From Aureococcus anophagefferens (taxonomy: Eukaryota > Sar > Pelagophyceae > Pelagomonadales > Pelagomonadaceae), in assembly GCF_000186865.1 (NCBI RefSeq), contig NW_008705590.1, positions 361,702 to 425,701 on the forward strand: a stretch of 64,000 bases of DNA, given 5' to 3'. Below the pieces are notes generated by a model. That model saw nothing but the letters and a program-made list of their open reading frames with translations, ran no database searches and was not told the origin of the DNA. A program made the position numbers and the translations under genes. Shown piece by piece: positions 39,721-45,840 of this stretch; position 1 is the stretch's first letter, and each line of letters begins with the position of its first letter.

Positions 39721-42700
39721 ATGGCGTCGCCGGCGGGCCGCGTGGGCGACCCGCGGAAGGCGCTGCGGGCCGGCCTCCTCAGCCTCCAAAAGGCCGAGCG
39801 CCACGCCGACGGCGGCGGCCAGCAGGCCCTCGGGGCGGCGTCGGACGTCGCCGTGGCCGCCGTGCGCCTCATGCTCCAGGCGCCGGCCGACGGGGCGCGG
39901 CAGCGCGCGGGCCTCGAGGCCCTCAAGCTCGTCACGGCCGTCAAGGCGCGCTGCGCCGCGGCGCTCGACGCCGGGGCCGCGCCCGTCGTCCAGCGCGCCG
40001 TCGCGACGTTCGCGGACGACGCCGCGATCGTCGACCTCGGCCGCGTCGTCGCGCAGCGGCTCCTCGGCGCGGAGAACCTCGGGCCGAGCCCGCCGCCGCT
40101 GGACGTCGGCGCCCTGACCGACGACGGCGAGATGCTCTCCCTCGGCGGCGCGTCGTCGCTGTCGTCCGGCGACGCGATCAAAAGGCCGACGCGCGGGTCC
40201 TCCACGCGCCTGGAGCGGCGCGTCCAGCAGGACGCCGCCCTCTTCCGGAGCTACGCCGTCAGCGAGGACAACGCGCGGCGCCTCCTCGAGATGTTCCCCG
40301 GCGACGACGAGCCGCGCCGCTCGCGCGCGCGCGACCGCCGCGACCGCGACCCCTACGGCCGCGAGGCGCGCGCGGGCGAGCGCCGCCGGCGACACCAAAG
40401 CCCCGAGCGGCGGGCGCCGTCGCCCGGGCAGCGGCAGCACGACTTCGCCGCGTCCTTCGTCCAGTCCATGGAGCCGCCCCGGTCGCCCGAGGGGTCCTAC
40501 GCCGCGGAGCCGCGGAACCCTATGGGCGACGCGTCCGTGTCGAGCGCGGGCACCTGGTTCGAGCAGGGCGACCCGGGCGACGCGCCGAAGCTCCCGCGCG
40601 ACGCGTCGCCGCCGAGACAACGATCCAAGAGCAGCGAGCACCTGCGGTCGGGGCCGCCGGGCTCCGAGGATTCGTCGCTCTCGGGCGCCCGGTCGCTCGG
40701 CGCGCTGCGCGTCGGGTCGTCGACGCTCGTGTCGACGGTGAAGACGGCGTCCCTCGAGAGCGCGGCGCCGACCCGCGCGGCGGCGGCCGCGGGCGCGTAC
40801 GCCGAGGCGCCCGCGCCGTCCGAGGACGCGCCGCCGCCGATGATCCACACGGCGCGCACGGCGTCGCCGACGCCGGGGAGCCGCAAGCGGCCCCGGCGCG
40901 GCGACGACGCGCGGCCGCGGACCGCCGACGAGCGGCCGCGGACCGCCGACGCGGCGACGCCGCCGCCGGGCCGCCTCGCGGGCGTCGACGTCGACGAGCT
41001 GCTCGGCGCGTCGCGCGACAAGGCCATCCTCGCGGCCGACGCGTCGCGGCCCGAGCACGAGCTCGCCCTGTTGGAGAACCGGAGCGTGGGCACGCGCGTG
41101 ACCTTCGACGGCGAGTCCCTGAGCCAGTCGGCCGCGCATGAGACCGTCTCTCTGGAGGAGCAGAAGACGCTCGAGGGCTCCGAGGCGTCGCCCTTCCCCC
41201 TCACGTCCATCGAGGAGGACATGGCGGACCTCACGGAGGCCGTCGGCGGGCCCTACTGCGACATCGACGCGGAATTATTCCTCTCCGCGCACGGCCTCGC
41301 GCCGCGGATCCCCCGGAAGAAGACCGTGCGCCTGCTCGAGCGGCTCTTCGCGCCGCCCGTGGGCACGCTGACGCTGGACCAGGCGCGGTTCCTGAGCGCT
41401 TTAGACTTCACGCGGCGGGAGCGGAACATGATCGCGGCGACGCGCGCGGCCGACGGCGGCGGCGGCGGCGGCGCGGGCACGGCGCGCGGCTGGACCGCGG
41501 CGCTCTCGCGCGTGACGGGCGGCGAATTGGTAGACGACCCGGTCGTCGAGGACGAGGAGGCGCGCCTGCGGGCCCGGCGGCGGGACTTCACGGTCATGGG
41601 CACCGCGCGCAACGAGGCCGCGCTCCGCGCGGCCGACGCGGCCGTCCAGGGCCACGTGCTCCTGAAAAACGGCGACGTCCCGGGCGTCGGGCCCCTGGGC
41701 CGGTCGCCGGCGAAACAGGAGCGGCCGGGCCCGGCCCTCGACCCCATCGTCGTCAAGCCGTCGGAGGCGAACCGGCTGAACCACGCGTCCGCGGTCATCC
41801 GCGAGCAGTCCAAGGTCGCCGCGGCCGCGCGGCGCGTCATCACGGACGCGGCCGCGCGCGACGAGCCGCCGGCGCTGGCGGCCGCGGGCGCGCACCTCGT
41901 CCACGCGACGCACGACGGCACGGCGAACGGCGCGCTCAAGGTCGCGGACCCCATGCCCCTCTACGACCTGTTGCGGCTCCTCGACCCGAAGGAGCGGGGC
42001 TACTGCAAGGCGTCGGAGTTCAAAACGGCGATCCGCTGCGCCGCGGGGAACGCGCTGAGCGACAAGGAGATCGACCACCTGGCGGGCCACTACGCCATCG
42101 GCGGCGGCCACGCGGAGGACGAGGAGCCCGACGAGCGGCTCGGGCTCCGGACCGAGGGCCGCGCGCGGAGCGGCGCCGAATTCAACCACCGGTTCGGGTG
42201 GTTCTGGTCAAACTTCAGAATGCTCTAGCTCGATCACATCGAAGTCGATTCGGCTGATTTTTGGACGAATCGATTGTTCTCGTCGAGTTCTCGAAGCACA
42301 GCCGAAGAGCTTGCGTCGAAACTGTCGCATATGCGCACATTGAAGTCGAGTTGAAGATTTGACTTCGGCACAGGCGCGGAGCGGCGCGGGCTTCTACGGC
42401 GCCGAGGGCAAGGACCCCCTGGCGGAGCCCCTCGTGGACTACAACCTCTTCATCAGCTCCGCGAAGCTCGGCGCGGCCTTCGGGCAGGCGCTGCCGTCCG
42501 TGCCGTCGGCGCCGTGGTTCAACCTGCAGCGCCGCGAGCTCGGCGAGCCCGCGCCCCTGGTCGTGCGCACGCTCCGGGGCGCCGACGGCCGGCGCAAGGG
42601 CGTCCACGAGCAGCGGAGCACCGCGGGCTCCTGGGACGCCTACCTGCGCCGCGTCAAGGAGGACCGGTCCGGCGCGTTCGCGTACCTCGTCCGCCGGGGC

Positions 42701-45700
42701 TTCAAGGCGCTGCGCCACTCGCGGGCCACGCTCGCGTGCCGGCGCTGGCTCGTCCTGACGGCGCGGCGCGGCGCGGCGGTGCTGGACTTGAAGGCGCGCG
42801 CGCGCTTGGCCTACGCGCACTGGATGCGCCAGGTCGCGGCCAGGGCAGGACAAGAGAGCGAAATTCCCAACTTCAAAGGCTCCTTTCTCGGCCGTTGTCC
42901 ACTCGTTTCGGCTGATTTTTGGACGAGCGATCATCTCTCGGAACGGTCTCGAAGCGTGGATGCTTTTCCCGGAACGCGCGCGCGCGGAACACTCACGTTG
43001 AAGCGACGTTGAATCACCATTTTGCTGCCCAGGTCGCGGCGGACGCGTGGCTCAAGCGGCGCGTCGAGGGCGCGCGGCGCCTCATGGAGCGGCGCGCGGA
43101 CGCGACGCGCTTCCTCGCCATCAAGGCGCGCCTCGCGAACCAGCTCGCGGAGGCTCTAGCGCGGGGCCGCGCGAACGCGAACCGCGCGCACGAGCTCTAC
43201 TACAACCGCTGCGTCGCCTACGAGTACCTCCGGCGGCGCGGCATCAAGTCCAAGGCGTTGTCCACGGACATGCAGGCGGCCCAGGAGGACCTGAGCAGGC
43301 TCGGCACGAACGCCGTGGCGACGCAGGTCATGCGCCAGATGGCGCGCGAGTGGCTGTCCGCGCGGTCGCGCGGCGTCATGGACGCGTACAACGAGCAGTG
43401 CCGCGTCGCCGAGGAGCTGCGGGAGATGGCGAAGAAGGTCTTCGCCCAGCAGCAGCTGCGCTTCCGCGACGCGGAGCTGCTCAAGCAGACCGCCGCGAAG
43501 ACGGCCGTGCACGGGCCCAAGCGCGACGCGTGCCAGTTCCTCATGTCCAAGCTCGGCGAGGCGGCCATCGCGCGCGTCTACCGCACGCAGAACGCCTTCG
43601 AGAGTTTATTGGCGCGGGCGACGGCCTGCATCGCCCACTGCGACAACCAGGACCGCGCGAAGACATGGCTCCGGAGCCGCGTCGGCGGGCTCCGCCACGT
43701 CGACGAGAACCGCGACGAGGCCAACGGCTGGCTCGTCGCCGTGGGCAAGCACGCGAAGAAGACGGCCGTCGCCCAGGCGCGCGCGCGCACCTGGCTCGTG
43801 CTCCAGAAGGACAACCTGCAGCGGGCCCAGGTCATCCAGAAGCAGGGCCTGGCGAAGAAGGAGCTCGCGTCCGCGATCCAGCAGGCCAAGGACAAGGCTT
43901 TGGGCGACAAGCTGCGGAAGAAGTTCCCGCGGCGCTTCGCCGAGCTCGAGAAGCTCGTCCGGGCCGAGGAGAAGAAGGTCGTCAAGGACCGGCAGAAGAT
44001 GTCGCTCGAGGAGCGCGTCGAGCTCGTCGTCACGGACGTCTTCAATCAGTACGACGTCGACGCCAGCGGTGAGATCGACCGCACGGAGTTCGTCGCCATG
44101 ATGCGCAACGGCCTGCTCCTGGGCCTCTCGGAGCCGCCGAAGCGCGCCGCGCTCAAGGACGCGTTCACGCAGATCGACATCGGCCGCGACGGCACCGTCG
44201 AGTTCTCCGAGTTCTACAAGTGGTTCACGCACGCGCGGGCCAAGGGCAAGGAGGGCGCCAAGGTCGCGCCGTCCCTCGAGTCCATCGTCCCCGCCAAGGA
44301 GCGCGCGCTGACGCGCATGCTCAAGGAGTACCGGTCCGGGGCCCTCGCGCTCGACGCCGAGGACCTCAAGCCGCCGCCGCCGAAGAAGCTCGAGGGCGCC
44401 GCGTCCATCCGGCGGCCCCTGGCGGAGCTCGAGTCGACGGACAAGGACCGGGGCTCCCTCGACGACCGCCTCAAAGCCAAGCTCGAGGCCAAGGACTCCG
44501 GCCCGCAGGTCGTCGACTCGCGCGGCCGCGTCGAGGAGAAGGCCGAGAAGGAGGACACGGTGAAGAAGGCGCTCATGGAGCGGCGCGAGCAGGAGATGCG
44601 CGGCGAGAACGACCGCGCGTCCGACGCGCTCCTGAGCGACGCGAAGCGCGTCTTCGCGCTCATCGACGTCGACGGCTCCGGGAAATTGGCGACGGAGGAG
44701 ATTTTAAGGGCCATCAAGGAGGACGAGCGCGTCGCGGACTTCCTCAAGACGACGCCGAACAAGTTGCTGCAGTACTTCCTCGTGCCCGCCAAGGTCGCCG
44801 TCGCCATGGCCGAGGCCGACGCGGACGGCGACGGCGAGATCAGCGTCGACGAGTGGGACGCGCTCATCCAGAAGGCGCTCATGGCGAAGCTCGACATCAT
44901 GGGCGGCCGCCGCGTCGAGGACGACGCCTTCGCCGAGTCCTTCCTCGCGCTGGCGAACCAGATCTACGACATCATCGACGCGGATGGCGACGAGAATCTG
45001 GACAAGCAGGAGATGGTCAAGGCCGTGCAGCACGACGAGGACGTCATCGAGTTCCTGGTCATGTGCAAGGTCACGGAGCTCCAGGACCTGCTCGTGCCCT
45101 CGAAGCTGTCGCGGGCGCTCGACGACATCGACGCGGACAAGGACGGCATCATCCAGAAGCGGGAGTGGATGGAGTCCATCGACCGCGCGCTGAAGGCGTG
45201 CCTCGCGGCGCGCGCGGAGGAGCGCGAGGACGACGACCGCTTCTCCATCGAATTCCTGAGCCTGGCGCGCGAGGTCTTCCAGCTCATCGACACGGACGGC
45301 AGCGCGTCCCTCGACAAGGACGAGATCGTCCGGGGCGTCGAGGTCAACGGCGACGTGCAGAAGTTCCTCATCTCCTGCGGCAACCAGTACCTCCAGTACC
45401 TGCTCGTCCCCGCGCGCGTCAAGGCCATGCTCTGGGAGCTCGACACGGACCACGACGAGTCCATCTCCCTCGAGGAGTGGGACGCGGCCATCGACAGCGC
45501 GCTCAAGACCAAGCTCGACGCGCGGCGCGCGGGCCGCGAGCGCGACCGCAAGGCCGCGGTCGACGAGCAGCTCCAGGCGGCCCTCAAGGTCAACGCCAAG
45601 ACGCTCGAGATGGCCAAGCTCGGCAAGAAGCCCGCGGGCGGCTGGCCGACCATGGGCAAGGACGGCAACGTCCGCGGCGGCGAGTCGCGGGAGCAGCTCC

Positions 45701-45840
45701 TCGGCCTCACGCCCGAGCAGCTCGCCGAGCAGGCCCGCCTCGAGAAGGAGGCGCTCAAGGCCGCCTTCGTCGCCCGGCCGAAGAACGCCAAGGGCATCGC
45801 CATCTCCGACCGCAGGTCGCGCCTGTGCATCGTCATGTAA
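39721..45840 (+). CDS. giant 8-EF-hand helical protein, three exons (two introner-like introns)
   Basis: Exons are 39721-42162, 42374-42832 and 43033-45840, all phase 0, giving 1902 residues. Residues 1-420 are low-complexity with an N-terminal helical (armadillo-like) part. An EF-like unit near residue 750 (LYDLLRLLDPKERGYCKASEF) may be degenerate. Exon 3 begins with a long helical region of W-L/R-rich repeats. Eight canonical EF loops then follow from about residue 1308: DVDASGEIDRTE, DIGRDGTVEFSE, DVDGSGKLATEE, DADGDGEISVDE, DADGDENLDKQE, DADKDGIIQKRE, DTDGSASLDKDE and DTDHDESISLEE. They form four pairs. The protein is probably a Ca2+-responsive cytoskeletal or flagellar component, by inference. 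Reading it without splicing would give three separate ORFs. Confidence 0.75.
42171..42373 (+). mobile_element. introner-like element 1 (forms intron 1 of the EF-hand gene)
   Basis: 203 bases flanked by the 8-base duplication GCGCGGAG (42163-42170 and 42374-42381). The termini are imperfect inverted repeats: CGGCGCCGAATTC at the left and the complement of CTGTGCCGAAGTC at the right (10 of 13). The element ends in CACAG, the 3' splice site. The 5' splice site would be the GC that begins the left duplication. It shares blocks CGGCTGATTTTTGGACGA and TCTCGAAGC and a paired TTGAAG 3' block with element 2. Confidence 0.7.
42841..43032 (+). mobile_element. introner-like element 2 (forms intron 2 of the EF-hand gene)
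   Basis: 192 bases flanked by the 8-base duplication GTCGCGGC (42833-42840 and 43033-43040). The ends CAGGGCAG and CTGCCCAG form short inverted repeats. The left duplication begins with the GT donor, and the element ends in CCCAG, the acceptor. Removing element and one duplication restores the uninterrupted reading MRQ-VAADAW. It shares sequence blocks with element 1, so both descend from one family. Confidence 0.75.

Follow-up and report, generated by a model that had tools for sequence, protein, structure and literature searches.

Introner elements as the probable source of both introns of an EF-hand gene in Aureococcus anophagefferens

Analysis of a 64-kb stretch of DNA (hereafter the window) from the brown-tide alga Aureococcus anophagefferens leads us to conclude with high confidence that both introns of an EF-hand gene are introner elements, i.e. 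short non-autonomous DNA transposons, similar to miniature inverted-repeat transposable elements, that inserted into coding sequence. This conclusion is carried by genomic copies of two element families (termed e1 and e2), 8-bp flanking duplications, inverted ends, a GY (GT or GC) donor, frame restoration and a strand rule, all of them observed in the sequence of a genome of 49 Mb in 86 contigs. The initial annotation, which was made from the letters of the window, had named Aureococcus as one of two hosts of introners that act as DNA transposons; the gene product matches hypothetical proteins of A. anophagefferens strains SO694, JL722 and JL721, and the assignment to the DNA-transposon class has held up across the sampled copies with respect to duplications, inverted repeats and frame restoration.

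In the proposed mechanism, insertion would duplicate 8 bp of the target, the 3' splice site (..CAG) would lie at the outer end of the terminal repeat, and the 5' splice site (GT or GC) would come from the left one of the two target copies. Splicing, as predicted from sequence, would take out the element together with one duplication, by which the spliceosome would leave the reading frame unchanged, and transposition would depend on a transposase encoded elsewhere.

Copies, duplications and intron-like build

The gene (39721-45840, + strand; Table 1) has three exons, the length of each being divisible by 3, which join into 1902 codons with a single terminal stop, in agreement with the initial proposal that the frame is restored when each element is removed with one duplication. 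Neither intron length is divisible by 3, both introns are in phase 0, the frame is regained on their removal, and intron 1 is of the GC-AG rather than the GT-AG type. At the junction of intron 2, the gene model of strain JL722 connects identical residues. Several EF-hand domains were found in P0001, a full-length relative of the gene product.

Both introns share an identical internal block of 18 bases and a second block, TCTCGAAGC, as initially described, and the exact 8-base flanking duplications (GCGCGGAG and GTCGCGGC) and the spacing of about 460 bases (the intervening exon has 459 nt) were likewise confirmed. Two other descriptions stood in part: the paired TTGAAG block on the 3' side is exact in element 1 (42340 and 42351), but its second unit is TTGAAT in element 2 (42998 and 43009), and the inverted-repeat ends are present but imperfect, with 9 of 12 end bases matching in each window copy. 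When up to three mismatches are allowed, the 18-mer occurs at only two places within the window, compared with a shuffle mean of 0.02.

A search of the whole genome, which had been suggested as a check and in which a lack of further copies would have told against the interpretation, returned 1855 exact matches to the 18-mer (934 forward and 921 reverse) and none to the reversed pattern, together with 983 matches to the left end of e2. All 40 candidates scored among the 1697 found with element 1 show 91-100% identity, and the whole 878-base segment has 47 matches in the genome, mostly to element 2 at 93-98%. One of the matches, on contig 33, seemed to include similarity to the exon; it was rejected, as gapped alignment suggests a GC-rich extension of another e2 copy.

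The main sample comprised 94 distinct copies from 88 loci, 50 of which are nearest to element 1 (e1) and 44 to element 2 (e2). Of these, 52 represent the 52 places listed first for contig 1, drawn from 30 loci and 20 stretches, and the other 42 came from loci picked by similarity to the window copies; a second set added 20 further e2 copies from contig 2. The 8-bp duplication is exact in 73 of the 94 copies (41 of the 52 from contig 1) and has at most one mismatch in 82 (45 of 52). Because the element ends were allowed to shift, an identical search was run on 1128 mismatched left/right pairs, which gave 8 exact duplications and 63 with at most one mismatch. In the second set, the duplication is exact in 14 copies and has one mismatch in 4. 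Terminal inverted repeats occur at both ends of the elements, being CTGTGTGGAATTCAA in e1 and C[A/T]GGGCAGSAMAAG in e2.

Reading frames were compared across each junction by scoring codon use independently on the two sides and taking the best of six frames, with a codon score trained on the window gene, which is itself the source of 2 of the 82 copies scored. After removal of the element and one duplication, the best frame agrees on both sides in 78 of the 82 copies, and in 68 of the 70 whose two sides both have a positive coding score; the length removed is not divisible by 3 in 78 of the 82. An exact duplication is combined with an agreeing frame in 70 copies; 31 of them have a GT donor and 39 a GC donor, compared with a GY share of 19% among the dinucleotides of the coding sequence of the window gene. 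Of the 68 copies with positive scores and agreeing frames, 60 have ends and a donor that together name a single strand, and this is the coding strand in all 60 (27/27 for e1 and 33/33 for e2). A GY donor is also present in 16 of 18 copies of the second e2 set.

Within the window, a rule-based scan of both strands of the 64 kb (8-bp duplication starting with GT or GC, AG before the right copy, spacing of 70-400 nt, GC content of at most 58%), the thresholds of which were chosen after both elements had been seen, returned these two structures only, and the reversed-sequence control gave one. Duplications with near-perfect inverted ends, sought in the same window, gave 11 matches, the same number as the reversed control. 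An RNA hairpin that joins the intron ends was considered as a general feature and is unsupported, as the two introns depart from shuffled sequences in opposite directions, intron 1 folding better (z = -2.24) and intron 2 worse (z = +2.25). Around element 1 the left/right identity extends to 14 bp, its first 6 bases being equal to the right flank. These bases (42171-42176) are CGGCGC, matching the right exon, where related copies have CTGTGC or CTGTGT; either chance or conversion from the flank may account for the match.

Table 1. Coordinates of the EF-hand gene, its introns and the parts of the two elements in the window
Feature	Position	Strand	Remarks
Exon 1, EF-hand gene	39721..42162	+	Start as in P0001-P0003
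Intron 1	42163..42373	+	211 nt, GC-AG, phase 0; left duplication copy plus element 1
Left copy of 8-bp target duplication GCGCGGAG	42163..42170	+	Predicted GC 5' splice site
Element 1, family e1	42171..42373	+	203 nt; ends CGG..CAG (family consensus CTG..CAG), terminates in CACAG
Left terminal inverted repeat arm, element 1	42171..42185	+	Decayed; most frequent forms CTGTGTGGAATTCAA and CTGTGCCGAATTCAA
18-base core block in element 1	42251..42268	+	Common to both elements
TCTCGAAGC block, element 1 copy	42289..42297	+	
Right terminal inverted repeat arm, element 1	42359..42373	+	Ends in predicted 3' splice site CAG
Right copy of GCGCGGAG	42374..42381	+	First bases of exon 2
Exon 2	42374..42832	+	459 nt; separates both introns
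Intron 2	42833..43032	+	200 nt, GT-AG, phase 0; left duplication copy plus element 2
Left copy of 8-bp target duplication GTCGCGGC	42833..42840	+	Predicted GT 5' splice site
Element 2, family e2	42841..43032	+	192 nt; sense subtype CAG..CAG, terminates in GCCCAG
Left terminal inverted repeat arm, element 2	42841..42854	+	
18-base core block in element 2	42909..42926	+	Common to both elements
TCTCGAAGC block, element 2 copy	42947..42955	+	
Right terminal inverted repeat arm, element 2	43019..43032	+	Ends in predicted 3' splice site CAG
Right copy of GTCGCGGC	43033..43040	+	First bases of exon 3
Exon 3	43033..45840	+	EF-hand domains (scanned on full-length relative P0001); ends at stop codon

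Alternative explanations and age of the insertions

Several observations weigh against the introner interpretation. Diverged copies are under-represented in the sample, for which an exact match to the 18-mer or to the left end, or else resemblance to the copies in the window, was required. The duplication has two or more mismatches in 12 of the 94 copies, the frame is not restored in 4 of the 82 (L004, L029, L031 and L047), and in 12 of the 82 at least one side lacks a positive coding score. In L031 (e2) the AG end is not accompanied by a GY donor, in L070 (e1) the ends as called include no AG, and in the second e2 set the copies L108 and L116 (2 of 18), the right ends of which are doubtful, have no GY donor. 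A transposase with matching ends was not found in the genome, and the stretches examined at three places with P-type transposase similarity, described below, carry no e1 or e2 end motif.

The gene models of strains SO694 and JL721 (P0002 and P0004) seem to run on into element 1 at the site that it occupies in the window. Together with the GC donor of intron 1, this would fit a scenario in which the elements are mobile but inefficiently spliced, so that the gene is disrupted in this strain. We consider this very unlikely, given that the frame is kept on both sides in 68 of 70 copies and that all 70 scored copies have a GY donor against the 19% seen in coding dinucleotides; moreover, failure of an automatic gene model to recognise a GC-AG intron is no evidence of retention. 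A spread through RNA, by reverse splicing or otherwise, has been proposed for introner-like elements of fungi and would fit the location of most copies in apparent coding sequence (both sides score positively in 70 of 82) and in spliceable orientation. The constant 8-bp duplications and the terminal inverted repeats speak against such a route, as do the e1 copies found in both orientations relative to the gene, which is not expected from inserted spliced RNA, and we assign it very little probability. That the introns are ordinary old spliceosomal introns, alike through tandem or segmental duplication within the gene, might be suggested by their common blocks and their location 459 bases apart in one gene, but is already refuted by the dispersed copies, which form two families with different ends, each spread over many contigs, and by duplications that differ between the two introns and are copy-specific.

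Returning to the introner interpretation, the initial annotation had regarded both elements as recent gains caught in place. A related protein from an ENA contig of 14.5 kb, P0001 (98.6% identity, 1876/1902), crosses both junctions exactly as though the element and one duplication were missing. The nature of its source was assessed with the unspliced frame that runs from exon 2 into intron 2 as a protein query, which gave 827 matches, 120 of them listed. All 120 matches listed (P0005-P0124) extend into the intron-coded part, the match ends within 25 residues of the C-terminus in 117 of the 120, and the upstream contexts of the 120 are all distinct. The ENA and JGI sets thus hold many unspliced frames of introner-bearing DNA, since 117 of the 120 listed entries come from them. 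The source of P0001 is rich in unspliced introner read-throughs, and therefore intronless alleles probably exist; P0001 itself would most likely be an allele without both introns, and a spliced gene model with the elements present in its DNA is a less probable origin. Most of the listed proteins with a translated-introner C-terminus end at or near one introner stop. Such read-through proteins suggest a simple survey of metagenomes for introners from protein data alone.

The two elements differ in their distance from the nearest subfamily consensus, which is 2.6% for element 2 (4 of 27 contig-1 copies are closer) and 7.9% for element 1 (8 of 18 closer). A recent gain is thus plausible for element 2, but not well supported for element 1, for which recency is also doubtful because the element appears to be present at the same site in two other strains. 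Compared with the window (42171-42220), element 1 of strains SO694 and JL721 seems to have several base changes, the exon-coded sequence being mostly identical; these differences could reflect conversion among copies or assembly error.

Family ends, splice polarity and candidate mobilisers

The consensus sequences of e1 and e2 have the 18-mer in common, by which most copies were chosen, and in an ungapped comparison at a fixed offset 41 of the 74 neighbouring bases outside it are also identical. The best other offset gave 0.43 and the maximum of 2000 shuffles was 0.41. A gapped global alignment of the same region did not do better than shuffled sequences (score -23.5, highest shuffle -23.0), so that homology of the cores rests on the ungapped test. 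The terminal repeats given above are unlike between the two families.

The ends of e1, CTG..CAG, give an outward AG on both strands, and e1 would thus be spliceable either way round. In contrast, e2 has an AG on one strand only, the strand being determined by the base at the second position in both arms. Among 38 copies of e2 there are two mirror subtypes, 27 copies in which the right end is CAG (21 of the form CAG..CAG and 6 with an altered left end) and 11 copies with CTG..CTG; the former would be spliced on the strand of the core and the latter on the opposite strand. The second base is equal on both arms in 0 of 56 e2 copies (shuffles 0.14-0.50). Of these copies, 18 were picked by a pattern in which the left arm is restricted to A or T, and the right ends of two are doubtful. 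A locus on contig 1 (L092, G000:C1:2490400-2491100) holds two elements of the antisense type of e2, 245 bases apart from start to start with about 50 nt between them.

The two arms of a copy were also compared at variable inner bases, in modest samples of 56 e2 and 44 e1 copies. In e2 the arms agree at base 9 in 0.82 of copies and at base 11 in 0.84, against 0.54-0.72 and 0.51-0.63, respectively, between an arm and the corresponding arm of whichever copy has the nearest interior; base 15 breaks the pattern (0.43 against 0.60-0.91). The excess of arm agreement is smaller in e1 and absent at one of the six positions tested.

Based on these observations we tentatively suggest, as a possibility that we ourselves rate as rather unlikely, a modular organization of the introners, in which an internal core (the 18-mer together with several constantly spaced blocks) would travel with swappable terminal repeats, the two arms within a copy would evolve in concert at variable inner bases, and the second terminal base of e2 would fix the strand on which the element can act as an intron. 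If true, a single base at the end of a transposon would make splice polarity a trait open to evolution. The strand rule and the details of the ends would make the origin of splice polarity and of the family ends testable, if they hold across all copies.

Transposons that make 8-bp target duplications include hAT, P and Merlin. Profile searches of the genome gave no match for hAT (PF05699), KDZ (PF18758), MULE (PF10551) or IS1595/Merlin (PF12762), in a setting where control genomes were positive for MULE and IS1595 only and none was positive for PF05699. The P-type transposase profile (PF21787), for which no control genome was positive, has one match in the genome, a decayed copy on contig 25, and the 8-bp duplication agrees with what is generally held of the P superfamily. 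Two more P-type places were found by protein search on contigs 2 and 11; these near-identical copies have an open frame of 563 aa and lie in stretches of 3.4 kb (L095 near the end of G000:C2 and L096 on G000:C11) that are 99.9% identical and in opposite contig orientation, the one on contig 2 being located about 4.7 kb from the contig end.

The P-type gene on contig 25 holds a diverged introner relative with 84% identity to the e2 core over 68 nt. This relative (L093:2282-2441) corresponds to a putative intron of 160 nt with a decayed 8-bp duplication, GTAAGCTA/GTAAACTT; its outer flanks, when joined, read GLRRARKLTREHF, and a relative with 29% identity, aligned by eye, is continuous through the region. 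We regard an introner inside this transposase gene as a lead rather than a demonstration. The GC-rich first part of the same gene (L093:991-2281, G000:C25 at about 178 kb) contains in its 430 codons seven in-frame TAG, one TAA and no TGA, several of the TAG being at positions where glutamine would fit, which could reflect decay (CAG to TAG) or recoding. Viral carriers were also considered; two matches to the 18-mer in IMG/VR sit in apparent ordinary bacteriophage reading frames and were taken as chance, because similarity to the elements does not go beyond 18-20 bases.

Comparison with known introners

The gene provides an independent example of introns made by transposons. Its host is one of two species with a published DNA-transposon mechanism, and the only two introns of the gene, as read here, are both of probable transposon origin. 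Introner elements of A. anophagefferens and their DNA-transposon mechanism were reportedly described by Huff, Zilberman and Roy in 2016 (Nature 538:533). In the accessible passages of the literature, the transposons of Micromonas and Aureococcus have one splice site at the transposon end and co-opt the other (PMC9612004), Aureococcus introners insert in both orientations (PMC10228655), and they have direct repeats of constant length and inverted repeats (PMC7789003). The passages available from PMC11782384 contain nothing further on these points.

The window elements resemble these published introners in being short non-autonomous DNA transposons of the same species with inverted repeats, constant-length direct repeats, a splice site at an end of the transposon with the other one co-opted, and insertion in both orientations, a likeness of described properties. 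The finding is thus already known in kind and in host species, and what it adds to the published route are further details on the build of the element ends. The strand rule, the covariation of arms and the common core were not found in the passages of open-licence literature at hand, which does not imply that they are unpublished.

Among the available comparisons with other families, a 3' site in the element with a 5' site in the duplication is one of several modes recorded by Gozashti et al. 2022 (PMC9860276). The families treated in that work, among them the introners of Symbiodinium microadriaticum, share this arrangement and the terminal inverted repeats with the window elements, but the duplication there is 4 bp rather than 8 bp. 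Family 4 of Aureococcus sp. from the same source has both splice sites inside the element and adds 12 bp to the transcript, whereas the window elements would add nothing. The introners of Amoebophrya, as portrayed in PMC7789003, are similar in having inverted repeats at the intron ends, direct repeats at the borders and a possible hairpin; they are non-canonical introns with direct repeats of 3-5 nt, in contrast to the GT/GC-AG introns with 8-bp duplications described here.

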